The position numbers and the translations under genes are program-made. The notes under the pieces were generated by a model that was not told the origin of the DNA, did no database searches, and saw only the letters and a list, made by a program, of their open reading frames with translations. DNA of 64,000 nucleotides from Microbacteriaceae bacterium 3FA27C10 (lineage in GTDB: Bacteria; Actinomycetota; Actinomycetes; Actinomycetales; Microbacteriaceae), in assembly GCA_005502775.1 (NCBI GenBank), contig SCNI01000017.1, forward strand, positions 1 through 64,000, given 5' to 3'. Within the stretch, counting starts at the first letter, position 1; every line of letters begins with the position of its first letter. Positions 18,583 to 34,528 of this stretch are shown piece by piece.

Positions 18583-18610
18583 CCCCTCGCGTGCGCGCGC
18601 ACGCGAGGGG
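18583..18610. repeat. 28-bp perfect palindrome upstream of small terminase
   Basis: The two 14-base halves, CCCCTCGCGTGCGC and its exact complement, abut with no spacer. The site lies 30 bases before the small terminase start in a 116-base non-coding gap. It could be a terminator of the preceding gene, an operator, or part of the packaging (cos/pac) region. The structure is certain; the role is not. Confidence 0.85.
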
Positions 18611-18669
18611 GAGATAGATCACTGCCGGTGGAGTCGCCTATCAAGGTCGCCGCAGCGATTTCGACTCCC

Positions 18670-19235: not shown

Positions 19236-19237
19236 GA

Positions 19238-19607: not shown

Positions 19608-19623
19608 GGAAACCTCCGTCGAT

Positions 19624-19662
19624 CTGGTTGCTCGGCCGGACCCGATACGGCCGAGCAACCAG
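19624..19662. repeat. 15-bp inverted repeat at the head of the late module
   Basis: Perfect arms at 19624-19638 and 19648-19662 (core GGTTGCTCGGCCG) enclose a nine-base loop. It lies between the early-operon terminator and the first late gene. It may be a regulator binding site for late transcription or a second terminator; there is no T-run. Confidence 0.8.
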
Positions 19663-19747
19663 TCGGTGACGTGCGCCCCCCACGGCGCTCGTCTTCACTC
19701 GGCCGCATCCCTCTACAGCTACGACCGAGGAGCCTGTGATGGCAATG

Positions 19748-19776
19748 AAAAAGCCCCGCCGTGGTGGCGAGGCTTT
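19748..19776 (-). terminator. Rho-independent terminator of the early operon
   Basis: On the minus strand a GC-rich stem (arms 19750-19760 and 19766-19776, one mismatch, loop of five) runs directly into TTTTT. It lies downstream of the last early gene (stop at 19850) and marks the early/late boundary. Confidence 0.85.
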
Positions 19777-19849
19777 CGTTCGGGTGAGCGGCACCCAAAC
19801 TCTAGTGACTAATAGTGCAATGGTTTGTCAAGTATCTCGGCATTGAGTC

Positions 19850-20104
19850 CTAGCGCGGCGTGTCGGCCTTGCTGGCGCGCGAACTCGCGATCCTTGGTCT
19901 CGGCTGGTGTCCAGCCTCCTGTTCGGCCTTCCTGCGGGCGTATGTGGCGCGCACGTCTCCGAAGCGATAGCCGCCTCCACCGCTGCGCCACTTGCTCTCA
20001 CGCGCGAGCTGGTAGGCGCGCCGGCGGCCGACGCCGAGCGCCTCCATGACGACGTCGATCGCGACGAACTGGTCGTCTCCGAGTTCATCGGTGCGTGCGC
20101 TCAC
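19850..20104 (-). CDS. Small helix-turn-helix DNA-binding protein
   Basis: The 84-residue product contains DVVMEALGVGRRRAYQLARESKW at its centre, a helix-turn-helix of the excisionase/MerR-like or replication-regulator type. A basic tail follows (YARRKAEQEAGHQPRPRIAS). The GTG at 20104 overlaps the preceding stop as GTGA. As the last gene before the early terminator it could be a late-gene regulator or an excision factor; neither is proved. Confidence 0.65.
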   Translation of the reverse strand: MSARTDELGDDQFVAIDVVMEALGVGRRRAYQLARESKWRSGGGGYRFGDVRATYARRKAEQEAGHQPRPRIASSRASKADTPR

Positions 20105-20859
20105 GGCAGCAGCTCCATCCATCCGGCGGCGGGCTTGGTGATGACGTGCGTCGGGTTGAGCGAGCACAGGATCTGCGTCGGCTTCGGGCCCTCGTTGCGC
20201 AGGATGCCGTACAGCTGGCCATCGCAGTAGATGGGCCCGTAGTCTGTCTCCTCCACGATCTCGTTGCAGCGGGCGTTGATCGTGATGCGCCGCGACGGGC
20301 TGACCTGCAGCGACCGCGTCATCAGCTGGCGGAGCTCGAGGGCGTCGCCATACCAGGACGGCCCCATGGTGGGATAGCTGCTCAGCCAGTAGGCGTGATG
20401 ACGGGCGATCGCCGCGAGAGCGAGACGGGTCTCGGTGTCACGGGTGAGACCGTGGGAGTGGCCCTCGGGCACCGGCCGCTCGCGCAGGATGGTGCGCACG
20501 AGATAGGCGGTCCAGTCTTTGATCTCGGCGATCGCTTCGGCGGCCATCGGGTTCCACATCGCGCCGACGTCGCCGACGTTGCTGGTCTGCACTCGCTCGC
20601 GCTCTTCGCGGCTCGCTGTGCGCAGCACCGAACGCGTCAGGAGCGGCCACTCGCTCATGATCGTCTGCAGCAGCTTCGGGAAGAGGCGGTGGTGGTACAT
20701 GCACAGATCAGTGTGCGGGACGACAATCCTCGGCTCGAGCACGTCTTCGCCGAACACGGCGTGCAGGATGCGCTCGGCGTCGTCCATCTTGCGTTGGCAT
20801 CCGGGCACCACGCACCAGGTCGTCGCGGTCGGGATGACGAATGCCGGGTAGTCGATCAA
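20101..20859 (-). CDS. Hypothetical phage protein with putative zinc site
   Basis: The 252-residue product starts at a TTG (20859) that overlaps the previous stop as TTGA and lies six bases after AGGAG. The N-terminus has CVVPGCQRKMDDAERI, then VVPHTDLCMYHHRLF, a Cys/His spacing suited to zinc binding. The rest is helical, with a second Cys pair near the C-terminus (ARCNEIV; ILCSLNPTH). No family is recognised and no function is assigned. Confidence 0.65.
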   Translation of the reverse strand: MIDYPAFVIPTATTWCVVPGCQRKMDDAERILHAVFGEDVLEPRIVVPHTDLCMYHHRLFPKLLQTIMSEWPLLTRSVLRTASREERERVQTSNVGDVGAMWNPMAAEAIAEIKDWTAYLVRTILRERPVPEGHSHGLTRDTETRLALAAIARHHAYWLSSYPTMGPSWYGDALELRQLMTRSLQVSPSRRITINARCNEIVEETDYGPIYCDGQLYGILRNEGPKPTQILCSLNPTHVITKPAAGWMELLP

Positions 20860-21170
20860 TTGGTCTCCTGTGCTGCCTGCGGCGAGCGCCGTTTTTGTCT
20901 GATGTGTGCGGCCGATCGGATGATGATTTGTCGGTCTTGCTCGCCGTCGGCGCGGAGGCGTTCGTGCATCTTGGCGAGTCGGCTTCGACCTCGTGCCTTC
21001 GCATACTCGATGCGGTGGTGGAGCCACATGAGCGGGTCGGCGTACTCGAGCGTGATGATGTCGATCGGGTTGAGGACAACGGTCGACCTCGCGTCGTGCA
21101 CGACGACGGTGCCGGCGGGGATGATCGGGCTGATGCGAACGTCCCAGCCGGGCAGTGATGAGAGCTTCAT
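20856..21170 (-). CDS. Hypothetical phage protein
   Basis: The 104-residue product has a beta-rich N-terminal half (VRISPIIPAGTVVVHDARST) and a strongly basic helical C-terminal half (RIEYAKARGRSRLAKMHERL; SAAHIRQKRRSPQAA). The C-terminal half could contact nucleic acid. ATGA overlap fixes the start at 21170. No family match. Confidence 0.6.
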   Translation of the reverse strand: MKLSSLPGWDVRISPIIPAGTVVVHDARSTVVLNPIDIITLEYADPLMWLHHRIEYAKARGRSRLAKMHERLRADGEQDRQIIIRSAAHIRQKRRSPQAAQETN

Positions 21171-21499
21171 GCGGGCGCCAGTTGGTGGTCGAGCGGGACG
21201 TGGATGGTGATGTCGAGCTGCTCGAGGATGTCGCCTTCGTCGAGGTAGCAGAAGCCTGCGTGCTCCGGTGTCGAGAGGTGCCAGCGGAGCCGCGGCTCTT
21301 CGTCCGTGCTGAGTGTGCAGAGTTCGCCCTGGGGGTGGTGGTCGATCGGCTGCAGCGTCTTGAGTGCAATCGCGACGTGATCGGTGCACGCGGCTGAGCA
21401 CGATTCGTCGTCGACGAGGATGTGGAAGTCGGCTGGCTGTGTGCACGATGATTTCTTCGTGACGAAGTGGCAGACGCCCCGCCGCTCCTCGGCGCTCAC
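21167..21499 (-). CDS. Hypothetical phage protein
   Basis: A 110-residue acidic protein with four or five cysteines (VCHFVTKKSSC; DESCSAACTDHV; LCTLST; GFCYLDEG) that could bind metal. The GTG at 21499 is set by overlap with the previous stop. No recognised family. Confidence 0.55.
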   Translation of the reverse strand: MSAEERRGVCHFVTKKSSCTQPADFHILVDDESCSAACTDHVAIALKTLQPIDHHPQGELCTLSTDEEPRLRWHLSTPEHAGFCYLDEGDILEQLDITIHVPLDHQLAPA

Positions 21500-22089
21500 C
21501 GGTCGGCCTCGTCGCGCGCCGCCACGCGAGCGCGGATGTAGTCGATGACCGTGGGCTCGTTGATGCAGGCGCTGCAGAGGTCGGGTTCGACCCAGAAGCA
21601 CGGCTGGCCGACGCGCTCGATGCAATCGGAGCAGTCGTCGTCGGTGCACCCGCAGACACGGCACGTCCTCGGCTCGGGGCCGCTGATCGCGTCGACGAGC
21701 ATCTCCGCAGCATGAGACGCGATCGCGGCGGGGCCGCCGCCTGGGACAGTGAAGCCGCAGGTGCAGATCGCCTCATTCGTGCGGCCACCAGCGTATGCGT
21801 GCTTGCGGAGGACATCGGCGATGCGCTCCACCTGGTCGGCGCGGCTCGCCGGCTCCTCGTCGACGGGGTCCTCGGTGTTCGGGTAGGCCTGTAGCACGTC
21901 GAGGACCACGGCGAGGAACGGGCGGTGCGGTTCCACGTCGACGCCGTAGAACGTCGACACGGCCAGGTCGTAGATCGCCTCGTCGTGGTCGGGCGCGCGG
22001 TAGATCAGGTGCGCGCCCGTCGACGTGAGCTCGAGGTCGCTCACTTGCCACGCTTCGAGCTCCTCGAGCAGCTGCTCACGATCGGTCAT
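21496..22089 (-). CDS. Phage protein with conserved Cys-rich CRVCGC motif
   Basis: The 197-residue protein ends with a Cys-rich segment (TCRVCGCTDDDCSDC, then GQPCFWVEPDLCSACI) spanning roughly residues 140-177. Almost the same pattern recurs in many unrelated phage proteins as a C-terminal module, probably a structural zinc site. A second Cys pair (CTCGFTVPGGGP) lies before it. The N-terminal 100 residues are acidic and helical. No biochemical function is known. Confidence 0.7.
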   Translation of the reverse strand: MTDREQLLEELEAWQVSDLELTSTGAHLIYRAPDHDEAIYDLAVSTFYGVDVEPHRPFLAVVLDVLQAYPNTEDPVDEEPASRADQVERIADVLRKHAYAGGRTNEAICTCGFTVPGGGPAAIASHAAEMLVDAISGPEPRTCRVCGCTDDDCSDCIERVGQPCFWVEPDLCSACINEPTVIDYIRARVAARDEADR

Positions 22090-22259
22090 TTAGGGTCCCT
22101 CCTGATCGGGAGCGGCTGCAGCGCCGGCGGGCGGGCGTTTTTCCGGATCGCGATCACCACGGCGGCGATGATGACGGTGAAGAGCGCGAGGATCAGCAGG
22201 ACCACGAGCACGACGAGGGCCCAGCCGACGATGACGCCGAGGAGGTCGAACGGGTTCAC
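22086..22259 (-). CDS. Small single-pass membrane protein
   Basis: The 57-residue product starts at a GTG (22259) overlapping the upstream stop. It is almost all one hydrophobic helix (VGWALVVLVVLLILALFTVI and onward to about residue 37) followed by a basic/proline-rich tail. Its stop overlaps the next start as ATGA. No family; membrane location is clear from composition. Confidence 0.6.
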   Translation of the reverse strand: MNPFDLLGVIVGWALVVLVVLLILALFTVIIAAVVIAIRKNARPPALQPLPIRRDPK

Positions 22260-22474
22260 TCGGTCACCTCCGCATCTGCCATGCGTCGCTGCTGGGCCTC
22301 GTCGAGCATGGCGATCGCCGACTCGATGTCAGTCACCACCGCGACCTGCTCGTCGATCTCCGCCTGCGCGCGCCGACCACGCGCGACCGTGTCCGCGTTG
22401 ATCTCGCGCAGATGCTCGAGCTCGGCGCGCGCCTCGATGAGCTCCCGGTCCAGAATCTTCGCAACGGCGCTCAC
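22256..22474 (-). CDS. Small coiled-coil protein
   Basis: A 72-residue, nearly all-helical and highly charged protein (LIEARAELEHLREINADTV; VTDIESAIAMLDEAQQRR) with heptad spacing of hydrophobic residues. GTGA overlap sets the start. Unknown function. Confidence 0.55.
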   Translation of the reverse strand: MSAVAKILDRELIEARAELEHLREINADTVARGRRAQAEIDEQVAVVTDIESAIAMLDEAQQRRMADAEVTE

Positions 22475-22818
22475 TCGGCCACCGCCGGCGCGTCGTTGGT
22501 AGCCGCCTCGAGCGTGGGCGGCTCCTCCACGTCGTCGACGTCGATCGGCGGAGTTGCGATCGCCGGAGCGGGTGGGCGCGAGGTGCGGGCGCGGTTGCTC
22601 TTCGGTGTGGGCTCGTCGTAGTCCTGGCCGGCGTACTCGATGTTGGTGGCCGGATGCACCTCGATCGAGGGCTCGTCGCCGTGCTTCACGAGCAAGTGAT
22701 CCCCTCGGCTGCCCGTGATCACTCCGGGCTTCGTGCCGCCGCCGTTCAGCAGCAGGCGCACTCCCCCGCCGCGCTTCGCCGGCACGTGGAACTTCTCGCG
22801 GATCTCTTCCATGGTCAT
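22471..22818 (-). CDS. Hypothetical phage protein
   Basis: The 115-residue product has a compact N-terminal beta region (VRLLLNGGGTKPGVITGSRG, then HLLVKHGDEPSIEVHP) that looks like a small barrel, and a disordered acidic/proline-rich C-terminal half. No family match. ATGA overlap with the preceding gene. Confidence 0.55.
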   Translation of the reverse strand: MTMEEIREKFHVPAKRGGGVRLLLNGGGTKPGVITGSRGDHLLVKHGDEPSIEVHPATNIEYAGQDYDEPTPKSNRARTSRPPAPAIATPPIDVDDVEEPPTLEAATNDAPAVAE

Positions 22819-23165
22819 GATTTCTTCCCTTCGTTGGTGGTGGTGAACGGTGCGATCGTGCGGAAATGCGGTCGAAGCAGAGCGTTCTGTGGGTATGCGG
22901 CTAGCGCCGCGGTGATGATCTGTTCGCTTCGCTCGCAGGCGCGCATGAGGGCGTGCACCTGGTGCCCGAACTTGGTCACTGTGATGAGCCCGGCCTGGTA
23001 TTCCTTCCAGACGGCGAGGTAGGTCGGGTTGCCCTGCAGGGCGTGCTTCCAGAACGGGGTGCGCTCGGGCTCGAAGTGCTGTGCCTGGATGCGCTGTGCT
23101 TCGTCGATGATCGTGAGGGTTGCGGCGTGGCCGCGTTGGGCGGGTGCTGCCTTGGGGGTGCTCAT
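22815..23165 (-). CDS. Hypothetical phage protein
   Basis: A 116-residue mostly helical protein (IIDEAQRIQAQHFEPERTPFW; YLAVWKEYQAGLITVTKFG; ALMRACERSEQIITAALAAY). No family recognised; part of the coupled early operon, overlapping both neighbours by four bases. Confidence 0.55.
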   Translation of the reverse strand: MSTPKAAPAQRGHAATLTIIDEAQRIQAQHFEPERTPFWKHALQGNPTYLAVWKEYQAGLITVTKFGHQVHALMRACERSEQIITAALAAYPQNALLRPHFRTIAPFTTTNEGKKS

Positions 23166-23578
23166 TCGGGGGTCCTTCCGGTGGGGGTGGGTATTGCCGG
23201 GCGAGGGATGGAGGTGGAGTCCGACGTTCCTCCGTGGCCGCTCGTCATTCGGTGTCCGGTGTCGTGCCCGGTCCTGCTGCGGTGGTCCTGACCCCGCTGG
23301 CCCAGCAACGTCGTGGGGATCTCGGGGGCCGGTGTCATGGCTGCCGCGAGCGCCTGGACGAACGCGGTCCCGGCTCGGGTGAAGGCGGTGCCGAGAGCGG
23401 TCATCGCGATCGAGAGGTCTTCTGCGGCGCGGGTGGCTTCGGCGAGCGCGCGCTTCTTGCGTTGGGCTCGGAGCCAGTCCTCGCGCTGCTGGCGGAGTCG
23501 CGGGATGACGAGGATGATCACGGCGACGGATGCGCCGATGAGGATCGAGCCGGCGAGGATGTAGAGCTGCTCGGTCAT
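23162..23578 (-). CDS. Single-pass membrane protein
   Basis: The 138-residue product has an N-terminal membrane helix (residues 4-27, QLYILAGSILIGASVAVIIL), a basic helix after it (RLRQQREDWLRAQRKKRAL), an alanine-rich helix and a disordered Ser/Pro/His-rich tail. This N-out/C-in plan suggests a membrane-anchored cytoplasmic domain. The ATG at 23578 overlaps the upstream stop; longer reading is arginine-rich shadow. Confidence 0.6.
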   Translation of the reverse strand: MTEQLYILAGSILIGASVAVIILVIPRLRQQREDWLRAQRKKRALAEATRAAEDLSIAMTALGTAFTRAGTAFVQALAAAMTPAPEIPTTLLGQRGQDHRSRTGHDTGHRMTSGHGGTSDSTSIPRPAIPTPTGRTPE

Positions 23579-23970
23579 GCGCCGGCCGCCTCGCCGAGGA
23601 GGTCTTCGACGATGCCGAGCACGTCCGTGAGTCGGATCGTGAGCAGTGCGCCCTGGCCGTCGGTCGAGCGGGTGCGGTCGACGACGTCGGCGCAGTCGAG
23701 TAGCTCGCGCTCGAGGCGGGTCAGGTCGAGCTGTTCCGGCTGCCCGGCGGCTAAGCCGGTGAGGCGGCGGGCAGCTTCCCACGCTCGGACGTTGCGCTGG
23801 TCCCACGAGTAGATCCGCTTGTGGTCGCGGGTGGCGCCGCTTGCGACGGTTGCGTAGTCGCCGGCGTCGTGCAGCAGGAGGGTGGTGAGTTCGACGAGGG
23901 GCATGGCTGTGATGCGCTCGTCGGTGAAGGCTTCGCGGCCGAGGTTCGCGAAGTCGATCTGTTCGTTCAT
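23575..23970 (-). CDS. Hypothetical phage protein
   Basis: The 131-residue acidic, helical protein (FANLGREAFTDERITAMPLV; RKIYS-type turn at HKRIYSWDQRNVRAWEAARR) sits directly after the SNF2 helicase gene and is coupled to it by ATGA. It may be an accessory to replication, by position only. Confidence 0.55.
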   Translation of the reverse strand: MNEQIDFANLGREAFTDERITAMPLVELTTLLLHDAGDYATVASGATRDHKRIYSWDQRNVRAWEAARRLTGLAAGQPEQLDLTRLERELLDCADVVDRTRSTDGQGALLTIRLTDVLGIVEDLLGEAAGA

Positions 23971-25769
23971 GCTGTCATCTCCTGTTCGGGTGCGGCGTCG
24001 CTGGTGATGCCGAGCACGGATTCGGCGAGGCGGCGGGCGCGGTGGGGGTCGATGGTGGCGGATTCGAAGAGCTTTCCGTCCTTCGAGAGGAGGGGCTCGG
24101 CCTGCTGGCGTTTGATCTGGAGCTTCTCGAGCATGGGCGGATCGGAGCCCTCTGCGGAGTTGAGGAAATAGGCGACGACGGGGTCGCTCTCCATGCCGTC
24201 GCGGCGGAGGCGGCCGATGGCTTGCTCGTGGACGGCGGGTGACCAGTCGAGTTCGCCGAAGACGCCGACGCGGGCCCATTTCTGGAGGCCGTCGAGGCCG
24301 GCGCCGGAGCGGAGCGACATGATCAGGATGCGGCAGTCGGGTGCCGGAGCTGGGTTGCCGTCGACGTCGAGGCCGTCCTTGTCGAGCACCTGGTCGGGGC
24401 GGTCAGTGAGGGGTGCGCAGAACGCTTCGATCGCGGCCTGCTTCTGCTTCGGGGACTCGGAGCCGGTGTAGAGTAGGGGGCCGAACTCGGCGAGCTCGCG
24501 GAGCCAGATCTCGTAGACGTCGCGGTGCCAGCCCCAGAGCACGATCTTTTGCTCGGACTCCATGAGGAGCCGGACGAACTCGGCGACGTAGGGGGCCTTG
24601 TCGACGCCGGTGGCGTGGCGGAGCTTCATGTCGAGCTGGCCGCCGGCGGTGAACTTCTCCGTGTGGGTGCTGGTGTCGGCGAGGATGCGGCGGGCGAGCG
24701 CCTCGATGTCGCCCTTCACGGCCTCGAGGGCGTTGTAGTCGGAGTCGATGAGGCGGGGCACCTTGATGGTCTGCGGGAGCTCGCGGCCGACCTCGACGCG
24801 GGTGCGGCCGAGCATGAGGCCCTGCTCGCGGAGGTAGTTGCCGAGGACTTCGGGGCGCTTGACGGTGCGGCCGTGGCCGCCCCATTCGCGCATGAACTCT
24901 TCCTTCGTGCCGAGCACCCCGGGTGCCATCACGTTGAAGAGGTTCCAGACCTCGTCGGCGTAGTTGTGGATCGGGGTGGCCGAGAGGCCGAGGACGTAGG
25001 AGGCGTTGTCGCAGAGCGCGCCGGCGGCCGCGCCCTTGTCGGTGGAGTCGCCGTTGCGGAGTTCCTGCACCTCGTCGAAGATCACCGTCTGGATCTGGTT
25101 CTTCAGCTGCGACGCCCACCCGTGGAGCTTCGAGTACGACACGATCGTGACGTCGGCGAGCTGGCCGGTCTGCACCCGGATCGACGGTTTCGTCGACTTC
25201 GCGATCTCGTAGCTGAGCCACGGGAACGCCTCGCGGAGTTCCGTTTCCCACCGCGGCGGCAGGTGTGTGGGCGGGACGACGAGCGCTGGCAGGGCGTCGT
25301 CGTGGACGAGGCCAAGGAGGCCAGTGAAGGTCTTCCCGAGTCCGACCTCGTCGGTGAGGAGCAGCCGGCCCTTCGTGCGCAGCACGTCGATGGCCTGCAG
25401 CTGGTACTCACGGGCGGTCTTCGCCGGCTCCGTCGGGAGCTCGCCGCGCTGGTAGGTGCCGGCCATGACCTCGGCGATGGTCTGCTCCTGGCGGGCGTGC
25501 TCGCGGGCTCCCTGCTCGAGCCAGCGCGCCGATCGCGGGTCGGCCGGCTCGAGCGGGAAGCGTTCCATCAGCCAGGAGATGTCGCGGGCGACTTCCATCG
25601 AGTCGGCCATGACGAGCTCGTCGGCGCGCGACGGCGCCAGGCGCCCGAAGATGCGGCGCGCACGCTGCCGCACGGCCGGCTCGAGGTCCAGCACCCACTG
25701 GCCCCGCGAGCGCGCGTTGGCGAACTCGGGAGGCAGGTACTCGTAGGTGCCGTAGGTGCGTGTGGTCAC
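23967..25769 (-). CDS. SNF2-family DNA helicase / translocase
   Basis: The 600-residue product has helicase motifs in order: Q-like EYQLQAIDVL, Walker A DEVGLGKT at 140-147, motif II FDEVQELRNG, motif III LSATPIHNYADEVWNLFN, motif V region LIMSLRSGAGLDGLQ and motif VI HEQAIGRLRRDG. This is an SF2 Snf2-like ATPase that moves along double-stranded DNA. Phages use such enzymes in replication or recombination, often paired with a nuclease; here a PD-(D/E)XK gene is coupled directly upstream by a GTGA overlap. The start is the GTG at 25769. Confidence 0.9.
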   Translation of the reverse strand: MTTRTYGTYEYLPPEFANARSRGQWVLDLEPAVRQRARRIFGRLAPSRADELVMADSMEVARDISWLMERFPLEPADPRSARWLEQGAREHARQEQTIAEVMAGTYQRGELPTEPAKTAREYQLQAIDVLRTKGRLLLTDEVGLGKTFTGLLGLVHDDALPALVVPPTHLPPRWETELREAFPWLSYEIAKSTKPSIRVQTGQLADVTIVSYSKLHGWASQLKNQIQTVIFDEVQELRNGDSTDKGAAAGALCDNASYVLGLSATPIHNYADEVWNLFNVMAPGVLGTKEEFMREWGGHGRTVKRPEVLGNYLREQGLMLGRTRVEVGRELPQTIKVPRLIDSDYNALEAVKGDIEALARRILADTSTHTEKFTAGGQLDMKLRHATGVDKAPYVAEFVRLLMESEQKIVLWGWHRDVYEIWLRELAEFGPLLYTGSESPKQKQAAIEAFCAPLTDRPDQVLDKDGLDVDGNPAPAPDCRILIMSLRSGAGLDGLQKWARVGVFGELDWSPAVHEQAIGRLRRDGMESDPVVAYFLNSAEGSDPPMLEKLQIKRQQAEPLLSKDGKLFESATIDPHRARRLAESVLGITSDAAPEQEMTA

Positions 25770-26176
25770 AGTCCGCCTTCGAGGAGAGGGATCACGGTCA
25801 GGGGCTTCCACTCGAGGAGGCGCGGCATGGCGATGTGTGCGGCTTTCGTGGTGACGAGGACGAGGTCGAAGACTTCGTCGCAGCGGGAGTATCGCTCGAG
25901 CTGGCGGAGGGCATCGCTGGCGGATCCGGCGACTTTCACCTCGACGGCGATGCCGTTGCGGCGGAGCATCCGGTCTCGCTCGGGGCGCGGGATGAAGATG
26001 TCCACCCTGGACTTCCCGTCGGAGAGCTGCCACTCGCGCTCGGACTCGATACCGACCGCGGTGAGGAGCTCGTGGATGTGGCGCTGCAGGGCGTCTTCGT
26101 CGTTCCAGGTGCGGGTGCGGAGCTGCTCGAGCACGGGGATCAGTGCGGGGCCGTCGTGTTCGAAGTCGGTGTTCAT
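25766..26176 (-). CDS. PD-(D/E)XK nuclease-like protein
   Basis: The 136-residue product has a helical N-terminus (DEDALQRHIHELLTAVG), then SRVDIFIPRPERDRML and IAVEVKVAGSASDALRQLERY. The Asp of RVDIFI and the Glu-x-Lys of VEVKV have the spacing of a PD-(D/E)XK active site, followed by the usual alternating strand-helix (FDLVLVTTKAAH). It is coupled to the SNF2 helicase gene, so a joint role in processing replication or recombination intermediates is likely. Specificity is unknown. Confidence 0.75.
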   Translation of the reverse strand: MNTDFEHDGPALIPVLEQLRTRTWNDEDALQRHIHELLTAVGIESEREWQLSDGKSRVDIFIPRPERDRMLRRNGIAVEVKVAGSASDALRQLERYSRCDEVFDLVLVTTKAAHIAMPRLLEWKPLTVIPLLEGGL

Positions 26177-26571
26177 ACGATCGGCTCCAGGTGCCAGGGT
26201 GCGGCGGCAAGCCGGGCGTCCTCGGCCGACTGCCAGGCACGGAACGTGCCGGCCGGGCGGTCGGCGCGGGAGACGGAGTCGGTGTCGAGGTGGTCGAGGT
26301 ACTCGGCGACCTTCTGTCCCAGGGTGCAGCCGAGCAGCTGGTCGTCGAGACGCTCTCGGAGCGGATGCTTCACAGTCCAGCTGTCGGCGGTGAACGACAC
26401 CACGTGGTCGATCTGCGCATCGGCGAGGAGAACGTGCACGGCACGGTTGTTCGCGCAGTGGTATTCGAAGCACCGCACCGCACCCTTCGTGTCGAGGTGC
26501 AGCGTCTGCCCGCACCCCATCGGGCAGTAGCCGGCGACCTTCGGGCCGAGCGGCTCGAGCACGGCGCCCAT
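26173..26571 (-). CDS. DUF6085-like phage protein
   Basis: The 132-residue product has the DUF6085 layout: VAGYCPMGCGQTLHL at residues 12-26, VRCFEYHCANNRAVHVLLAD, then HVVSFTADSWTVKHPLRERLDD and LLGCTLGQKVAEYLDHL. The paired cysteines suggest a small zinc-ribbon. Function is unknown, but the family is widespread in phages beside replication genes. Its ATG overlaps the ParB-like stop (TAATG). Confidence 0.75.
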   Translation of the reverse strand: MGAVLEPLGPKVAGYCPMGCGQTLHLDTKGAVRCFEYHCANNRAVHVLLADAQIDHVVSFTADSWTVKHPLRERLDDQLLGCTLGQKVAEYLDHLDTDSVSRADRPAGTFRAWQSAEDARLAAAPWHLEPIV

Positions 26572-27983
26572 TAGGCTGCCGCCGTCTTCGCCTTGCGCGC
26601 CTGCTCGACGTCGTGCTTCTTCACGATGCCCTCTTCGATGTCGGAGAGCGGGTAGCCCCAGGCCGCGAGCTGCTTGAGGTAGTACGGCAGGAGGCCGGTG
26701 TAGCCGCCTTCCCAGCCCTTCTTCTCGTCGAGCGAGCCTTCGATCGCGGCGATCGCCACGGCGAGGATCACGTGCAGGCCCTGGTCGGGCGAGGCGATCG
26801 CGAACTTCTGCAGCGCAGTGAACGAGCCGTAATCCTTCGCGGAGATCTCCACGCCCAGAAGCCCGCGCGCGATGCCAGGACCACGATGGGGCGCGCCGTC
26901 CATCTTCGCGATCCACAACGCGGCGAGCGCCGGTGCATCCTTGGGGAGGCCGCGGCGTTCGAGGAGCTCTTTGACCCAGGCGAGGCGGACGGTGGTGGCG
27001 GAGACCCAGAGCTTGGCGTTCTCCCGTGCCTGCCGGCGGTCGGCCTTCTCGGCGTCAGTGAGCGGACCTTTGGTAGTGCCGCGGCCGAGCTGGCTGTTGT
27101 GGTAGCCAAGGGTTGGGTAGTCGGTGACGATGTAGCAGGCTTCGTAGCTCTCGGTGCGGCGGCCCGATGTGGGGTCCCAGGTCCAGGTGGTGCGGGCTGC
27201 GGCGGCGAGGTGTTCGGCGGGCACGTCTTTGAGGTCGACGCGGATGTAGTCCTTGTCGTTGGTGTAGAGCGATGTGATGGCGAGGTTGGTTCTGTCGTCC
27301 CAGCTGGGGACCTTGTCGAGGATGCGGATGCCGTTGGAGTTGAGGTCGGCGATGATCGCGAGGCGGGACTCTTCGAGTGCGCGTGCGTCGCGGAGTAGCT
27401 GAGCGGCGTGGCGAAGTTTGGTGGGGTCGTCGAGCACGGTGTCGGTGAGATCTGCGATCGCGTCGGCGTCGTCGTCGAACTCTGCGAACACGAGGGCGTC
27501 TTCGATGGTGAGCTGGTGTTCGGCGAGCGCCTTGGTTGCGACGGGGCTGCGGGTCACCTTGAGGGAGTCGCCGACGCGGGCGAGCTTCGCGTTGGTGCGT
27601 TGGGCGATCTGCATGGCGGGCATTGCGAAGGAGAGTTGGCGGTAGGCGCTGGCTTCTTCGGTGTCGCGGAGGGGTGCTCGTTGGATGTTCTCGACGAGCT
27701 GGTCTGTGATGCGGTCGGTGTCTTCGGCGGGCTTGTCGATGACGTAGACGGGGATGGTGGTGAGGCCGGCTTGGACGGCGCCGACGGTGCGGCGGTGGCC
27801 GCGTTCGACTTGGTATTGCTCGAGGGTGGGGTCCCAGTAGGCGCTGATGGGGGTCTGGACGCCGTGCTGCTCGAGGTTCTTGATCCACTGGGGTGTGAGC
27901 TGCAGGTCGTCGCGGATGTTCTTGTCGGTGGCGATGGTCGCCGGGTCGAGGTGGATCAGGGTGCCGGTGGGGGCGGCGGTCAT
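26571..27983 (-). CDS. ParB-like nuclease-domain protein
   Basis: The 470-residue product has an N-terminal ParB/sulfiredoxin-type domain: [18 protein letters not shown], then [20 protein letters not shown] (the ERGHRR box) and [20 protein letters not shown]. The middle ([20 protein letters not shown]) resembles the ParB HTH core, followed by a long helical C-terminal region with no recognised domain. Phage ParB-like proteins may act in partition, in transcription, or as nucleases. The ATG at 27983 starts the conserved part; upstream in-frame sequence is a low-complexity shadow of the hexanucleotide array. Confidence 0.88.
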
Positions 27984-28014
27984 GGTCGTGCCTTTCGTAG
28001 AGGGTGGCGGGTGG

Positions 28015-28944
<930 letters not shown>

Positions 28945-28977
28945 GTTCGTGCCTTTCGTAGAGGGTGGCGGGTGGTG

Positions 28978-29382
28978 CTAGGCCCAGAGGTTCCGTGGGA
29001 TCTCGGGGAGGTCGATGGTTGGTGGGTCGAGCTGCTCGAGCTCGTGGCGGATGCGGTCGTTGAACCAGTCGACGGGCCTCCAGATGCCGACGTCGGCGCC
29101 AGCGGCGGCGAGGGCGGCGAGCCAGTCCTGCTGCGACTGCGAGGTCTTGCCGGTCATGGTCTTGAGCTCGCGGAACATCGAGCGGCCGGCGCGGATGTGG
29201 ACGAGGTGCAGGTCTGGGTAGCCGGCGGCTGAGCCTTTCGAGTACTCGGTGTGGTAGACCATCCAGCCGAGGCGCTGCGCGAGACGGATCACGCCGGTCT
29301 GCAGCTGGCGTTCGGTCATGGCTTTCGCCTGGGCGGCGTAGAACTCGTCGGCGGTCACCGGGTCGGTGTTGTAGGCGGTCAT
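28978..29382 (-). CDS. VRR-NUC domain nuclease
   Basis: The 134-residue product contains AKAMTERQLQTGVIRLAQRLGW, then AGYPDLHLVHIRAG and MFRELKTMTGKTSQSQQDWL, and ends with a strand-helix typical of the VRR-NUC fold (GADVGIWRPVDW). PD and ELK form the catalytic site of this PD-(D/E)XK subfamily, found in phage replication modules and thought to cut branched DNA. The ATG at 29382 shares its T/A bases with the upstream stop. Confidence 0.9.
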   Translation of the reverse strand: MTAYNTDPVTADEFYAAQAKAMTERQLQTGVIRLAQRLGWMVYHTEYSKGSAAGYPDLHLVHIRAGRSMFRELKTMTGKTSQSQQDWLAALAAAGADVGIWRPVDWFNDRIRHELEQLDPPTIDLPEIPRNLWA

Positions 29383-30293
29383 CAGAACCGCCGCCCGTCG
29401 AGTTCGGCGGCGATCTGGTCGCGGCGCATGGAGCGGTCGATGAGCCAGGACTGCCACTCGAAGGAGTCGTTGGCGATGGCCTGGCACACGTAGCTGGTCT
29501 CGTTCCCGACCGTCCTGGACGAGCGGCCGAGGATCCGGTGGGCGGCTTCGGTGGCATCGGCCCTGGTGACGGTTTCGTCGGTGAGCTTCTGCAGCGCTTC
29601 GACGACGGCAGGGATGTTCAGCTGGCGGCCGGTGGCGACCTCGAGCGGGGTGGGGGCAGATGCTTCCTTGTCGTCGTCGAGGACGGCCGGAAGGTGAGTA
29701 GTTCTAGACGACTGGTTAACAAGACGGGGGGTTATAACGGGAGGGGTGCAACCGGTGGTAACTTTTTCGACCTCGATTGCACCCTTAGCCGCATTTGTGG
29801 GTGCAATGGGTTGCACCCACGCTTCTGAGTTATCCACAGGCGCTTTCGCTGCTCGGCGGGCGTCGCGCTCGGCCGCTTTCGCGGCGCGTTTCGCAGCTGC
29901 CTGAGCCTCCTTCTCGGCCTCGATGCGGTCGCGCTCGGCACGTGCTGCGTTCTGGGCGTGGACACGCTGCATGGCGGCCGCGCTGACCCTGTTCAGCTCG
30001 GGATCCTTCGCGTCGAGCGCTTCGATTTCCTCGGCCGTGGGGAACACGATGTAGACGGCGCGGAACCCGGGCCGTCCGAAGGATTTGCGGGCGATGTACT
30101 GCTCGGCGATGAGCTCCTCGAGGATGCCGAGCACGCGGCGCTCACGGGCGCCCGACCACATCATCATCTTCTCGACGCCCGGCCACGCCTCCCGGGTCAT
30201 CTTGTTGGCGTCGTCGGCGAGCGCCATGAGCACGAGCTTGCTCGTGGCGTGGAGGTCGACCTCGGCGGCTGCTTCGAGGTGCTGGATGCTCAA
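29382..30293 (-). CDS. Winged-helix replication initiator-like protein
   Basis: The 303-residue product starts at a TTG (30293) that overlaps the previous stop, with GGAG eight bases upstream. Residues 1-90 form a winged helix (SKLVLMALADDANKMTREAW; SGARERRVLGILEELIAEQY; RAVYIVFPT) of the HTH_36/replisome organiser type. A long charged coiled-coil and linker come next, then a C-terminal helical domain (NIPAVVEALQKLTDETVTRA; ESYV-type ANDSFEWQSWLIDRSMRRDQ). It probably starts phage replication; a DnaD-like helicase-loading role is plausible but not shown. Confidence 0.8.
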   Translation of the reverse strand: MSIQHLEAAAEVDLHATSKLVLMALADDANKMTREAWPGVEKMMMWSGARERRVLGILEELIAEQYIARKSFGRPGFRAVYIVFPTAEEIEALDAKDPELNRVSAAAMQRVHAQNAARAERDRIEAEKEAQAAAKRAAKAAERDARRAAKAPVDNSEAWVQPIAPTNAAKGAIEVEKVTTGCTPPVITPRLVNQSSRTTHLPAVLDDDKEASAPTPLEVATGRQLNIPAVVEALQKLTDETVTRADATEAAHRILGRSSRTVGNETSYVCQAIANDSFEWQSWLIDRSMRRDQIAAELDGRRF

Positions 30294-30580
30294 CGGTGGT
30301 TCTCCTGGTTGCGTGCGAGGGTGGCGAGGCGCTTGGCTTCCTGGCGGGCCCAGTCGCCGGCGGCGGCGAGGGTCGCGAAGCTGCGCCAGCGCACAGGGGT
30401 CGGGTGGAGGCTGATGTAGACGCCGTGCTCGGCGGGGCCGACGATCCACCGGAGTGCGTCGAGGCCGTTAGAGGGCTGCTGGAAGACGATCCACCGGTCG
30501 GTGGCCTCGACTCGCCGGCGAGTGAATCCGTCCTCGAGAGCGGCGCGTGTGGCGCGCATGGGGCGGGTGATGGTGGCCAT
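30290..30580 (-). CDS. Small hypothetical phage protein
   Basis: A 96-residue basic protein (MATITRPMRATRAALEDG; FTRRRVEATDRWIVFQQPS; RWRSFATLAAAGDWARQEAK). Mixed alpha/beta; no recognised family. The ATG at 30580 shares one base with the previous stop. Confidence 0.55.
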   Translation of the reverse strand: MATITRPMRATRAALEDGFTRRRVEATDRWIVFQQPSNGLDALRWIVGPAEHGVYISLHPTPVRWRSFATLAAAGDWARQEAKRLATLARNQENHR

Positions 30581-31065
30581 CAGCGGGTCACCCGGGTGAG
30601 GAGTCGGCGGTGCCACGGCAGCGGGCGCGGCTGGGCGAGGGGGCTCGACGAGGCCTCCTGGCGGCGGAGGGCGACGAAGAACGCGTCAGCCCACTGCGCC
30701 TCGCTCGGCAGCTCGCTTTCTTCGGCGAGGTGGAAGATCAGAGCCTTGAAGCCGGCGGCGCGTTCGTCGGATTCGGCGAGCGCGGTGGTGAGGTGCTGGT
30801 TGGTGGTTTGGAGGTCGCGGTAGAGCTCGGCGCGGACTTCGAGGCCGAGGGTGAGGAAGGTGACTTCGTCGTGGAGGGCGTCGATCTCGGAGAGTGCTTG
30901 CTCGAGGGTGAGTTCGGCGGTGGTGGCTTCGATGAGGATGTTCGCTTGGGTGACGGCGGCAGCGGTGATGGATGCGAGTTGCTCGTCGGTGGTGGTCTGT
31001 TCTTCGTCGACGATGAAGCCGTGGTGTTCCCATGCGGGATGCTGGGTGGGTTCAGGCGTGGTCAC
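30580..31065 (-). CDS. Coiled-coil hypothetical protein
   Basis: The 161-residue product starts at a GTG (31065). Its centre (residues 35-125) is a long charged helix with heptads (SEIDALHDEVTFLTLGLEVRA; TNQHLTTALAESDERAAGFK), and the tail is basic. No family match. Confidence 0.55.
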   Translation of the reverse strand: MTTPEPTQHPAWEHHGFIVDEEQTTTDEQLASITAAAVTQANILIEATTAELTLEQALSEIDALHDEVTFLTLGLEVRAELYRDLQTTNQHLTTALAESDERAAGFKALIFHLAEESELPSEAQWADAFFVALRRQEASSSPLAQPRPLPWHRRLLTRVTR

Positions 31066-31738
31066 GGGCGCGGTCCCCTCGTAGAGTCCTGCGGGTGCGG
31101 GGTCCGAAACCGCTCGGGGGGGGGGTCTGCTTTTTCGGAGCCTTGGGCTTGGCAGGTTTCGTCGGGACGTGGGCGGCGCGGAGGAGGTTCCCGTCGGCGT
31201 CGAAGTCGTGGGGCTGTCGGCCGCGAGGTGGCTTCGGGTCGGCGTCGATGTCGTCCCAGTCGTAGGGGCCGGCCCAGCCTCGTTCGTCGGCGAGGAGCAT
31301 GGCGGCGCGGGCGTCGGAGTAGAGGACGGTGCCGGGGCGTGCGCTGGCGAGCACGGGGCTGTCGCGGCGCTGGGTGAACAGTTCGACGATCGCGGTGTGC
31401 GTGGTGTAGCGGATGCTGTTGGGCGGGTCGGTGATGAAGCTGAGGGCGAGCTCGGGTGTCCACTTGAGTGCGGAGGCGATGTCGGTGTGGTCGTAGCCGC
31501 AGTGGTGGAGGGCCTGCAGGCGGCGCACGGCGCCGATGGCCGGCATGCTGGCTATCGGCGCGGATGTGGGGGTCTCGTTGGCTTTGCGCCAGGCACGGTT
31601 CTCGCGTGCGCGAGCTGCGGCGGCGGCACGGCACTTGTCGTGGCCGCAGCCGCGGTTGTAGTGCTTGTTCGCGTCGTCTTCGGTCATGGTGTCGTGGTCG
31701 CCGTCGAGGATGGGGCGCTCCGTGCGCGGTCGTGCCAT
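31052..31738 (-). CDS. Putative DNA-binding phage protein with C10 tract
   Basis: The 228-residue product has an N-terminal TEDDANKHYNRGCGHDKCRA motif, then a basic stretch and a helical region (AVRRLQALHHCGYDHTDIAS; LKWTPELALSFIT) resembling the HTH found in a common actinophage protein family. The C-terminal 45 residues are basic and proline-rich. A run of ten C bases in the coding strand (31116-31125) lies 21 codons from the end; a one-base slip would replace the C-terminus. Confidence 0.7.
   Translation of the reverse strand: MARPRTERPILDGDHDTMTEDDANKHYNRGCGHDKCRAAAAARARENRAWRKANETPTSAPIASMPAIGAVRRLQALHHCGYDHTDIASALKWTPELALSFITDPPNSIRYTTHTAIVELFTQRRDSPVLASARPGTVLYSDARAAMLLADERGWAGPYDWDDIDADPKPPRGRQPHDFDADGNLLRAAHVPTKPAKPKAPKKQTPPPSGFGPRTRRTLRGDRARDHA
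31116..31125. repeat. Homopolymeric G/C tract of 10
   Basis: Ten consecutive G on the plus strand (C on the coding strand) lie inside the preceding gene. Such tracts are prone to slippage; the gene is in frame at length ten. Confidence 0.9.
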
Positions 31739-31771
31739 GGGTGTGCTCCGATTCGGTGGGTGCGAGCGGGC

Positions 31772-32071
31772 TCAGCGGGAGTAGAGGGCGAGGATCGCGA
31801 CGATGGCGGCCGCGGAGATTCCGATCAGGGCGGCGAGCACGGCGACGTGGGCGCGCAGGTGCTTGTCGGTGGTGTCGAGTGGGGCGGGGCGGGAGGCGAA
31901 GAGGCCGAGCTCGACCATGTGGCTGCAGCGGTCGCAGAAGATCTCGCCGGGCTGATCGGGGAAGCGGATGATGGTGTCCATGCCGGGTTCGAGGTCGGTG
32001 CCGCAGACAGCGCACGCGGTGGGTTCTCCGGCGACGATGTCTTCCCAGGAGGCGTGCTGTTCGATGCTCAT
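31772..32071 (-). CDS. Zinc-ribbon membrane protein
   Basis: The 99-residue product has ACAVCGTDLEPGMDTI and EIFCDRCSHMVEL (two CxxC knuckles, residues 20-50) and a C-terminal membrane helix (HVAVLAALIGISAAAIVAIL). It is a tail-anchored zinc-ribbon protein with no known function. It lies in a group of three adjacent small membrane proteins just after the antirepressor. Confidence 0.65.
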   Translation of the reverse strand: MSIEQHASWEDIVAGEPTACAVCGTDLEPGMDTIIRFPDQPGEIFCDRCSHMVELGLFASRPAPLDTTDKHLRAHVAVLAALIGISAAAIVAILALYSR

Positions 32072-32232
32072 CGGGGGCTCCGCTGGTAGTAGGTGACGGG
32101 CACGGGGTTGTGTGTCGTGCGGCGCCGGCGGGCGTCGGCACGCTGGGCGCGCACGAGGAGCACGCTGCAGAGGACCAGGGCGGCGACGAGCACGCCCGTC
32201 GAGGCGAACCAGAACACGGTCAGCGTGTCCAT
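32068..32232 (-). CDS. Small membrane protein
   Basis: A 54-residue protein with one N-terminal membrane helix (MDTLTVFWFASTGVLVAALV...) and a basic tail (RAQRADARRRRTTHNPV). Overlaps both neighbouring genes. No family. Confidence 0.6.
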   Translation of the reverse strand: MDTLTVFWFASTGVLVAALVLCSVLLVRAQRADARRRRTTHNPVPVTYYQRSPR

Positions 32233-32585
32233 GCGCGCAGCCTCCGCTCGAGGATGAGGAGGCCGACGGCGATGAGGACGACGGCAGGCCAGCAGTTCTC
32301 GACGAGCCAGGGGCTGAATGCGATGAGCCCGAAGATGCCGAGGATGACCAGGAGCGCTGCAGCGCCCTCGCAGGCCCTGCAGCGGCCCGTGGAGGGCTTG
32401 GCGGGCGGGTCGGCGGGGTTGCAGTCGGTGTCGAACCATCCGGCGCCGTCGCAGTCCTGGCAGGGGCGTGGTTCGCGGTCGACGCCGGTGGGGTGCCAAT
32501 CGTCGATGACGCCGGTGCCGGCGCACGCCGCGCACCAGGTGTCCTGGTCCGCGCCGGTGGTGGCGGGCTCTCGTGTGGTGTCCAT
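32220..32585 (-). CDS. Zinc-binding CxxCxGxG protein with two membrane helices
   Basis: The 121-residue product has two DnaJ-like knuckles (TWCAACAGTGVIDDW at residues 16-30; RPCQDCDGAGWFDTDC) and a further CRACEG. Two hydrophobic helices follow (AALLVILGIFGLIAFSPWLV; WPAVVLIAVGLLILERRL). It is likely a membrane protein with a cytoplasmic zinc module. No known function. Confidence 0.65.
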   Translation of the reverse strand: MDTTREPATTGADQDTWCAACAGTGVIDDWHPTGVDREPRPCQDCDGAGWFDTDCNPADPPAKPSTGRCRACEGAAALLVILGIFGLIAFSPWLVENCWPAVVLIAVGLLILERRLRAWTR

Positions 32586-32587
32586 GG

Positions 32588-33328
32588 CTACTCCTCGGTG
32601 AGGTCGGGACGGGTGACGGTGAGGTCGATGGTGGATGTGCCGCCGAGGCGCTCGTGGATCTGACGGAGGCCTGCGGGCGTGATGTGGATCTGCGGGTAGG
32701 GGCTCTCGAGCGCGCGGACGCGGCGGTGTCGGACGTGGAGCCAGCCGACGGCGACGAGGTCAGGTGAGGGCTCGTAGACGCTGGTGGGGCGGGTGACCCA
32801 GCCGCGTGCCCGCATCCAGTCGAAGAGCTGCTTCTGACTGATCTCGATCAGCGGGTCGCGAGAGAGGATCATCGCGGCATCGGCGACCGAGTACCACGCG
32901 GGCACGCGGCCGGCGACGGCCGGCGTGGTCGCAGGTGCGGGGCCGAGGTGGGTGATGGCCGGCGGGTTCGGCTGGGAGGCGCGCTGGATGTTGTCCAGGC
33001 CCGGCTGCTCGAGCTCCTCGATCTTCGCGCGGGCCCAGGACAGGAGGTCGAGGGCTTTCAGGGTGCCGAGCACGCTGACGGCGTTGTGGAGCTGCTCGAT
33101 CGACCAGGTGGTGCAGTGCTGCAGGCGCTCCGTCAGAGGACGGGTGCGGTCGGGTTGCTTCTCAGTCCAGTCGAGGTCGGCGCCGAGCGCTTCGAGGATG
33201 TCGCGGCACACGAACGTCACGGTGCCGCGGTCGATCTTCACACCGATGTCGATGCCGTGCCCGAACCAGCGCTCGAGGCGCATCGCCGGCCGGGTGTCCG
33301 TGTGGTCGTCGAGAAGATTCACGGTCAC
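32588..33328 (-). CDS. Phage antirepressor (KilAC/ANT domain)
   Basis: The 246-residue product has a C-terminal ANT/KilAC-type domain from about residue 145: WYSVADAAMILSRDPLIEIS, then KQLFDWMRARGWVTRPTSVY and HVRHRRVRALESPYPQIHIT. The N-terminal part (GIDIGVKIDRGTVTFVCRDI) resembles the start of Bro-N-like domains but is short. Antirepressors interfere with the phage repressor and favour the lytic cycle. It is the second gene of the early operon, directly after the early HTH gene, with a seven-base gap. Confidence 0.82.
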   Translation of the reverse strand: MTVNLLDDHTDTRPAMRLERWFGHGIDIGVKIDRGTVTFVCRDILEALGADLDWTEKQPDRTRPLTERLQHCTTWSIEQLHNAVSVLGTLKALDLLSWARAKIEELEQPGLDNIQRASQPNPPAITHLGPAPATTPAVAGRVPAWYSVADAAMILSRDPLIEISQKQLFDWMRARGWVTRPTSVYEPSPDLVAVGWLHVRHRRVRALESPYPQIHITPAGLRQIHERLGGTSTIDLTVTRPDLTEE

Positions 33329-33335
33329 TGCTCCC

Positions 33336-33974
33336 TCAGATCCGTGGTGCTACGGCTATGGCCGGGGAGGTGCTCGGTGACACGGCGGCGAGCCGGTCGA
33401 GCACCTCCCCGGTGTGTCCCGCCGGCCAGCGGCCACCGGCGGTCTCCCTCGCCTCTGCCACCACGGGGGTTTGCGCTCCCAGTGCGGTAGTGGGCCTTGA
33501 GGGAAGAGTGGTCGTCGGGGCCAGCCGATCGCTGGGTAGGGGGGTCGGCGTGGCCGGCCCCGACGAGTCTGGGGTGAGCGCCGAGCCGCTGGAGGTCGGC
33601 TCGGCGCTCTCACCGACGCCGGGGAACTCGGCAGTGTCGGTGGTCTCCTTCACGCTGTTCGCGGCAGAACCAGGTGTGTCCAGCACCTCGTCGCCCAGCA
33701 GAAGGGAACTCTTGTGAGGGGCGTCGCTACCTTCGGCGAGCGCCTCTTGGGCGATGGGATCTGCGATCTCGCCGAAGAAGGTGGCTACGGGGACGTTGAA
33801 GAAGCGTGAGAGCTTGATCAGGTCTCCGGTGCTGTACGCCGTTGTCCCGTTGTATCGGCGGACGACGCCGTTTCGAGATACGCCGAGGACCTCGGCGATC
33901 TGCTCTTGCTTGATACGCCGTTCGGCTGCGATGCCTCGCACCTTTGCTGCGACATCTGATTCATTGGGCGTCAT
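33336..33974 (-). CDS. XRE-family regulator, first gene of early operon (Cro-like position)
   Basis: Residues 8-75 are an XRE helix-turn-helix (VRGIAAERRIKQEQIAEVLG; VSRNGVVRRYNGTTAYSTGD; LIKLSRFFNVPVATFFGEI). The remaining 130 residues are Ser/Thr/Pro-rich and probably disordered. The ATG at 33974 is seven bases from a -10 element, so the mRNA appears leaderless. It is transcribed divergently from the second XRE gene, across shared operators. By position it is a Cro-like early regulator, though a repressor role is also possible. Confidence 0.85.
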   Translation of the reverse strand: MTPNESDVAAKVRGIAAERRIKQEQIAEVLGVSRNGVVRRYNGTTAYSTGDLIKLSRFFNVPVATFFGEIADPIAQEALAEGSDAPHKSSLLLGDEVLDTPGSAANSVKETTDTAEFPGVGESAEPTSSGSALTPDSSGPATPTPLPSDRLAPTTTLPSRPTTALGAQTPVVAEARETAGGRWPAGHTGEVLDRLAAVSPSTSPAIAVAPRI

Positions 33975-33981
33975 GCAGTGC

Positions 33982-34010
33982 AGTGTGACTCGAAAAATGA
34001 GTCATGTCAA
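33982..34010 (-). promoter_or_regulatory. Early leftward promoter (leaderless)
   Basis: On the minus strand TTGACA (34005-34010), a 17-base spacer and CACACT (33982-33987) precede the ATG at 33974 by seven bases. No ribosome-binding site fits in the gap, so translation is probably from a leaderless transcript. Confidence 0.75.
33986..34004. promoter_or_regulatory. Operator: TGACTC-N7-GAGTCA
   Basis: A perfect inverted repeat lies exactly across the spacer of the early promoter, ideal for repression. Its half site TGAYTCG(AAAAA) recurs in inverted form at 34031 (see the second operator). Confidence 0.8.
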
Positions 34011-34030
34011 ACGCTTCGTGTCGCGTTTTT

Positions 34031-34059
34031 CGAATCAGTGCACTCTTATTGGTGATTCG
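34031..34059. promoter_or_regulatory. Second operator region: CGAATCA-N15-TGATTCG
   Basis: Two inverted half sites match the TGAYTCG core of the operator at 33986. The left one (reading GATTCGAAAAA on the minus strand) shares the A-run with it. It lies between the two divergent promoters and could serve autoregulation. Confidence 0.65.
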
Positions 34060-34082
34060 TTCGAGACGATTGCGAAGCATAT

Positions 34083-34110
34083 TGTTGCAATTGCACCGCA
34101 GATCGATACA
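34083..34110 (+). promoter_or_regulatory. Rightward repressor promoter (leaderless)
   Basis: A -35-like TTGTTG at 34083-34088 and a -10-like GATACA at 34105-34110 are separated by 16-17 bases. The ATG at 34119 follows the -10 by eight bases with no ribosome-binding site, again implying a leaderless transcript. Confidence 0.6.
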
Positions 34111-34118
34111 CTGATTGC

Positions 34119-34496
34119 ATGTCAATCACTTCAGAGGACCTGGTTACTGACGAGCTCCGCGTCCGCGCGGCTCGAAACCTCCGTGGACTTCTCGCGGAGG
34201 AGCGATGGAGCGGACGCAAGGCCGCAGTCGCGATGGGTATGAACTTCAACGCCGTTAACCGCCGGCTATCCGGCGACGTAGAACTCAGCATCTCGGACAT
34301 CTCAGCGTTCGCTGCTCTGCTGAAGATGTCGCCCCTGGAACTCCACGGTCTTCTGCTCGGCGACCGCCGAACGATCACGGAAGCCGGAGAGCCTCACCGC
34401 GGCCGGGCCGGTGCAGCTGGGATCGCCACGATTTTTGACCTGGGAAGTGTTCGCGTGGGCCCTACCGGGATCGAACCGATGACATCCACGGTGTAA
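34119..34496 (+). CDS. XRE-family repressor-like protein, 3' end inside tRNA-Val
   Basis: The 125-residue product is the only plus-strand phage gene. Residues 8-75 are an XRE helix-turn-helix (VRAARNLRGLLAEERWSGRK; AAVAMGMNFNAVNRRLSGDV; ISDISAFAALLKMSPLELHG). The last 14 codons read through the 3' half of tRNA-Val and stop (TAA) in its anticodon loop. It is therefore likely the immunity repressor, next to attP in the free phage. If the att core is shorter than 41 bases, the C-terminus differs between phage and prophage forms. Confidence 0.8.
   Translation: MSITSEDLVTDELRVRAARNLRGLLAEERWSGRKAAVAMGMNFNAVNRRLSGDVELSISDISAFAALLKMSPLELHGLLLGDRRTITEAGEPHRGRAGAAGIATIFDLGSVRVGPTGIEPMTSTV
34456..34496. 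other. Probable prophage attachment site (attR) in tRNA-Val 3' half
   Basis: The phage/host boundary falls in the 3' half of tRNA-Val, the most common integration target of tyrosine integrases. The core limits cannot be set without the other att copy, which lies outside the window. The interval given is the part of the tRNA shared with the repressor reading frame. Confidence 0.6.
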
Positions 34497-34528
34497 ACGT
34501 GGCGCTCTACCAGCTGAGCTAAAGGCCC
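34456..34528 (-). tRNA. tRNA-Val(TAC)
   Basis: 73 bases fold as a complete cloverleaf: acceptor GGGCCTT/AGGGCCC, D-arm starting TAGCTC, anticodon stem CCACG/CGTGG with loop TTTACAC (anticodon TAC), T-arm with TTCGATC. CCA is not encoded. Its 3' side faces the prophage and shares sequence with the repressor gene end. Confidence 0.97.

Follow-up and report, generated by a model that had tools for sequence, protein, structure and literature searches.

A probable integration-dependent repressor switch at a tRNA-Val attachment site in a Microbacteriaceae prophage

A temperate tailed phage of Microbacteriaceae probably uses an integration-dependent repressor switch, in which the attachment core lies inside the repressor gene and integration into tRNA-Val replaces the C-terminus of the repressor. 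Sequence comparison suffices to establish two repressor C-termini, a common core, in-frame homology of the phage-encoded tail and an integrase beside attL; we infer from this anatomy that the long form lacks stability or activity and that immunity comes only with integration. The window analysed here, a stretch of 64,000 nucleotides, corresponds to C24:1-64000 of a draft genome of 4.0 Mb in 115 contigs. Its left part is occupied by the prophage, whose identified genes of the late or leftward block all lie on the minus strand. The features are as follows.

1..34454, minus strand: prophage body up to attR
689-1363, minus strand: holin-like gene in the prophage body
5516-8158, minus strand: tape measure
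10571-11146, minus strand: head-tail adaptor
11938-13176, minus strand: major head protein
13179-14192, minus strand: protease
14202-16616, minus strand: portal
16471-18135, minus strand: terminase
23967-26240, minus strand: helicase
32588..33328, minus strand: antirepressor-like protein with ANT/KilAC domain, with similar stretches in the prophages of genomes G249 and G396
33336..33974, minus strand: HTH_3 protein of 212 aa (domain match), first gene of the leftward arm
33975..34118, no strand: divergent intergenic region with inverted repeats (repeat search)
34119..34496, plus strand: repressor gene in its prophage (integrated) form, 125 aa, ATG start, TAA stop
34455..34493, no strand: 39-bp attR common core, with two identical copies on the minus strand of contig C54
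34455..34528, minus strand: tRNA-Val, anticodon tac (UAC), the attB target, intact in the lysogen (ARAGORN)
34494..34496, plus strand: TAA stop of the prophage form, on the host side right behind the core, in the anticodon loop
C54:1-3210, outside the window: attL end of the prophage (attL, repressor tail, HTH gene P0002, integrase)
C54 (L008) 2719-3063, opposite strand: HTH protein P0002, between attL and integrase

The minus-strand block also holds a ParB-like gene. The 212-aa HTH_3 protein occupies the position of Cro and presumably has its role. In the divergent region, the inverted repeats at 33986-34004/34019-34037 and AATCAGTG/CACTGATT at 34033-34040/34109-34116 are candidate operators, and no sigma-70 consensus promoter was found in 33975..34118. 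The earlier note took the repressor gene to be the only plus-strand phage gene. This holds within the window, where no other was identified. On C54, however, the integrase and the SHOCT-domain protein of the prophage are likewise encoded on the plus strand once that contig is oriented like the window.

The earlier note had further described a 125-residue XRE repressor-like frame that enters tRNA-Val and stops in its anticodon loop, and this was confirmed: the frame at 34119-34496 (+) overlaps the ARAGORN tRNA at 34455-34528 (-) by 42 nt, comprising 13 sense codons (VGPTGIEPMTSTV) and the stop. The 3' part of tRNA-Val, read in antisense, thus specifies the last 13 residues, and the stop TAA at 34494-34496 corresponds to T-T-A of the anticodon loop on the other strand. 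The protein matched Pfam HTH_3 weakly (E=0.0093, under the curated cut-off) and PHROG 4583, 'transcriptional repressor', better (E=3.3e-6). An AlphaFold model of the 125-aa form (mean pLDDT 70.5) places five helices within residues 5-79, with pLDDT <50 for most of residues 83-125, a low-confidence linker or end. The best Foldseek matches of the model were XRE and lambda-CI DNA-binding domains at E 2e-3 to 5e-3, with none at E <=1e-3, and residues 5-79 model as an XRE/lambda-CI-like DNA-binding domain. Among phage records the repressor gave 24 weak matches (E limit 10), none spanning 80% of the query, and its search of IMG/VR returned no relatives.

The 3' part of tRNA-Val has two further near-exact copies in the genome, both on C54, and four weaker matches elsewhere represent other sequences. 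One of the two, C54:3210-3172 (minus), is identical to attR over 39 bp, which sets the end of the core at 34493, the base before TAA. It adjoins the opposite-strand HTH gene P0002 and the tyrosine integrase. The left att copy that the earlier note suggested seeking was found, then, on another contig of the same genome. When the phage sides were joined at the core in silico, the reconstructed attP encoded a repressor of 149 aa, in which the first 125 residues are kept and followed by 24 new ones, EDGRFETDWVAPVVDIFAAKVVGL. The core (39 bp) is therefore shorter than the 42-nt overlap and ends before the stop, and the two C-termini differ (149 vs 125 aa), as the earlier note had anticipated for a short core. 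The prophage repressor is the shorter form, with its stop supplied by host sequence directly behind the core, and the tRNA-Val that attB overlaps stays intact in the lysogen.

Since C54 and C24 show no exact end overlap (15-127 bases tested), their link does not come from one molecule; no read or contig bridges the gap, and the two are connected through host synteny and homology. In five of eight same-genus regions compared (G006, G007, G003, G001, G014), the DNA left of tRNA-Val follows the host part of C54 in collinear order, and each of the five has the host part of C24 to the right of that tRNA-Val on one contig, which argues that C54 and C24 flank a single tRNA-Val. The link is further supported by G249 and G396, each of which joins C54-integrase-like and C24-gene-like stretches in one element. 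Of the remaining three regions, G002 had no C54 match, and in G015 (L039) and G011 (L040) the C24-side host DNA stands reversed to the left of the tRNA, as if the tRNA segment were inverted; G015 additionally has a reversed C54 stretch on the right of the tRNA. As a host landmark, the Lrp-type gene next to the second core copy proved unsuitable: it occurs in 6 of 16 genus genomes (E 1e-30, own included), and in the other five it lies on a different contig than tRNA-Val. Larger host blocks replaced it for the synteny comparison.

The order that these comparisons suggest is host, core copy, small element (DUF6414, resolvase-like), core copy (attL), prophage, core (attR) and tRNA. The 3.3-kb segment between the two exact core copies, C54 (L008) 3211-6478, holds a DUF6414 gene and a resolvase-like gene and probably represents a small element, or what is left of one, in tandem array at this tRNA-Val. 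Further tRNA-Val core copies at the same site were seen in G002 and G014 (L045 7489-7534 and L046 17068-17107, ~11 kb and 1.6 kb from the tRNA).

The same anatomy recurs in other elements. An integrase search of 398 family genomes (E <=1e-50) matched eight, the own genome included. Two of these, G249 and G396, belong to other genera and contain intact single-contig prophages that occupy this tRNA-Val and are flanked by repeats of 39 and 40 bp; each has an HTH gene that reads into tRNA-Val in the same frame as the window repressor. Their reconstructed repressors would lengthen from 100 aa (prophage) to 138 aa (viral) in G249 and from 125 to 141 aa, counted from a GTG start, in G396. Elsewhere in this set, G203 has a 22-bp repeat at tRNA-Leu, and no repeat was seen in G133, G201 or G066. 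G304, which has a distant integrase in common, was set aside as an example, with repeats at tRNA-Ser and no HTH frame seen entering that core. An alignment of core plus tail, searched against the 398 genomes, was matched strongly through the tail in three (G000, G249 and G396) among the matches listed; the other listed matches are interrupted by a stop, and most of them are simply the tRNA gene. Glutamicibacter phage BIM BV-113 was also rejected as an example: it has the tRNA-Val core, but TAA follows and no open frame runs through.

In IMG/VR, a degenerate core pattern identified 16 stretches on 15 contigs, and 13 of the 16 have an HTH-like frame through the core in the same register, the other three being two attL ends and one non-HTH frame. 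This suggests that the passage of a repressor frame through the tRNA-Val core is more than chance. The HTH-like calls were made by Pfam for 4 of the 13 (L085 weakly) and by BLASTP with composition correction off for the remainder. Compared with one another, 18 HTH proteins were loosely linked at E <1e-4 and fell, by eye, into six groups of 8, 3, 2, 2, 2 and 1 at E <1e-12, the window's protein pairing with L085; divergent HTH domains have one tRNA-encoded frame in common. L089 has, on the minus strand near position 42, a non-HTH reading frame of >100 residues that crosses the core in this frame too.

The integrase on C54, a tyrosine recombinase ending RKTAA, matched only Phage_integrase in Pfam, and no match to the excisionase family HTH_17 was found on C24 or C54. 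Against phage records, the best 30 of 563 matches were nearly all Mycobacterium phages, including Brujita and BigNuz, at 36-39% identity. Searching genome contigs with this single integrase gave no relatives; an alignment of four integrases as query gave 22 viral and 15 genome loci. The integrase ends in -AA in 29 of these 37 related loci, and a core lies upstream of it in 14. Many of the loci without a core start too close to the integrase for one to be visible, while some others, such as L145, L156, L157 and L158, have their upstream sequence complete and still no core. Three loci, L124, L129 and L146, are natural unintegrated contigs with a natural attP, in which the HTH gene passes through the core into the tail and is followed by the integrase, so that the long form is encoded directly; no tRNA was found at them. 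L146 (JAHBXU010000003.1), a phage-like contig with the module, is filed in a Planctomycetaceae MAG and is likely misbinned. In L147 (around 3460) a stop follows one codon after the core, and its two repressor forms would therefore barely differ.

Repressor and integrase are nearly adjacent in L124. In the window phage they are separated by ~600 nt with the opposing HTH gene between, and this position of P0002, between attL and integrase, makes a simple repressor-integrase operon doubtful here; P0002 may give the integrase its own control. A stretch similar to P0002 occupies the same place in G249.

Homology of the tail was assessed on 16 tails, with the one-residue tail of L147 excluded and contigs present under two handles entered once (L075 is L138, L087 is L134 and L088 is L124). 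The window tail scored a sum of 377 against the 15 others, compared with a mean of 200 (sd 19) for shuffles, of which 0/2000 reached 377; the sum is inflated because the tails are kin to one another and not independent counts (L148 is almost the same as L149, and L152 as L154). Read in its two other frames, the DNA of the window tail gave 194 and 217, so that the homology is confined to one frame. Among nine insertion-free tails, which are related, differences by codon position numbered 116, 85 and 178, most at the third, and pN/pS over all tail pairs was 0.81, a sign of weak constraint and uninformative for the tails. The last residue is S in 10, A in 3, G in 2 and L in 1 (the window), hence A or S in 13 of 16, and the penultimate residue is A or V in 14 of 16. 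The window tail ends VVGL, 9 of the 15 relatives end -AS, and -AA occurs in 1 of 16, so that the two-alanine end of an ssrA-like tag is absent from the window tail. As the host tmRNA tag ends ALAA, the window tail is not a plain copy of ssrA, and sequence alone cannot demonstrate that it acts as a degradation signal.

Broussard et al. reportedly described integration-dependent immunity in mycobacteriophages BPs and Brujita in 2013. In BPs, attP lies within the repressor gene and a C-terminal degradation tag is in use (PMC4557955); according to a review, the integrase carries a tag as well, and the stop is created by a host base beside the core (PMC9262239). The features listed for such systems in two sources (PMC9934374, PMC9262239) are a core in the repressor coding sequence, an attB over a tRNA whose 3' end is restored, a shorter prophage repressor, an ssrA-like viral tag with two C-terminal alanines, co-transcription of repressor and integrase, neither arm-type binding sites nor a recombination directionality factor, and a viral form that is unstable or inactive beside an active prophage form. 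The window phage resembles BPs and Brujita in having its attP core in the repressor gene, its attB in a tRNA gene and a prophage repressor cut by a host-supplied stop, and resembles Brujita, whose gene row is int, repressor, putative excisionase and antirepressor, in its related tyrosine integrase ending -AA and a nearby antirepressor. It differs from both in its use of tRNA-Val, in the opposing HTH gene between attL and integrase, and in its tail, which lacks their -AA, as do the -AS tails of its relatives; its repressor also gives no BLASTP alignment with that of Brujita. The anatomy fits a BPs-type switch in all but two respects, the -AA with which the viral repressor would end and the simple operon of repressor and integrase, and the most likely reading, by analogy, is the same kind of switch as in BPs with a diverged tail.

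On this reading, the repressor gene of the unintegrated phage would read through the attP core into the 24-residue phage tail and give the 149-aa form. Site-specific integration at the 39-bp 3' part of tRNA-Val would remove this tail and place the anticodon loop behind the core, where its antisense TAA would end the repressor at 125 aa. The tail could shorten the life of the viral form or abolish its activity, through proteolysis like that in BPs, and full repression and immunity would then arise only once the phage is integrated. The integrase, ending KTAA, may itself be short-lived.

Comparable systems have been predicted in Gordonia phages (PMC5559632) and in prophages of Bifidobacterium (PMC6109161) and M. 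abscessus (PMC9934374), with the same sequence-inferred anatomy. Unlike the window tail, all three are reported with ssrA-like tags. The sites given are tRNA-Thr in M. abscessus (PMC9934374) and tRNA-Met in Bifidobacterium (PMC6109161), and the Gordonia table of 13 sites has no tRNA-Val (PMC5559632), in contrast to the window phage. The M. abscessus account also describes tandem elements at one tRNA, like the tandem cores of C54, with unrelated repressors; there the two repressors use different core frames, whereas the HTH frames found here all use one (PMC9934374). No case of integration-dependent immunity in Microbacteriaceae was found among the papers listed by the literature searches, from which subscription papers mostly fall out, and this is no proof of absence.

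Other readings of the same anatomy are less probable. The core may lie in the repressor and the tails differ without the tail being a degradation signal: it could alter oligomerisation, mask DNA binding or have no effect, and its conservation could come as much from integrase-binding DNA as from protein. The VVGL end, the single AA end among 16 tails and the pN/pS value all favour this, but the prevalence of A or S at the end and of A or V before it, the excess of third-position differences, the restriction of homology to one frame and the C-terminal degradation tag of BPs, which has the same anatomy, speak against it, and we consider it unlikely. It would be odder still if the frame and its stop were accidental and the repressor merely ended by chance at the attachment site. 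Repressors often neighbour att sites, which lends this idea some plausibility together with the weak Pfam HTH assignment. The same-register HTH-like frames in 13 of the 16 IMG/VR stretches (the rest being attL ends and the one non-HTH frame) and the homologous tails past the core already disfavour it, leaving it the most improbable of the alternatives.

The second core copy bears on a further reading. C54:6518-6480 (minus) is exact, with identity running one base further (to 6479, 40 bp), and is followed immediately by an in-frame TGA, so that excision between this copy and attR would keep the repressor protein unchanged. Were it the true attL, the viral and prophage repressors would be identical and there would be no switch. 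Against this, the copy at 3210-3172 stands beside the HTH gene and integrase in the order seen at the intact attL of G249 and continues into a homologous tail, and the 3.3 kb between the copies looks like a separate small element; we therefore regard an attL at 6518-6480 as highly improbable, and retain the BPs-like switch with a diverged tail.

More tentatively, these phages could form a distinct Microbacteriaceae branch whose invariant module of tRNA-Val core, tail and integrase would inactivate any HTH repressor placed ahead of it in the sole frame where the antisense anticodon loop is a stop, the tail acting by a non-ssrA signal (-AS or hydrophobic ends); we hold this possible but rather doubtful. 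The present findings would carry over to another actinobacterial family a kind of genetic switch, worked out in mycobacteriophages, that does without a separate lysogeny circuit, and the natural tails with different endings offer a test set for the proteolysis model. The evolution of such switches would be illustrated by the swapping of HTH domains in front of an unchanged core, tail and integrase. Ten of the 15 core-bearing IMG/VR contigs (L075-L079, L081-L083, L086, L087/L090) are only ~14 to 18 kb long, and may be small phages, satellites or partial contigs.
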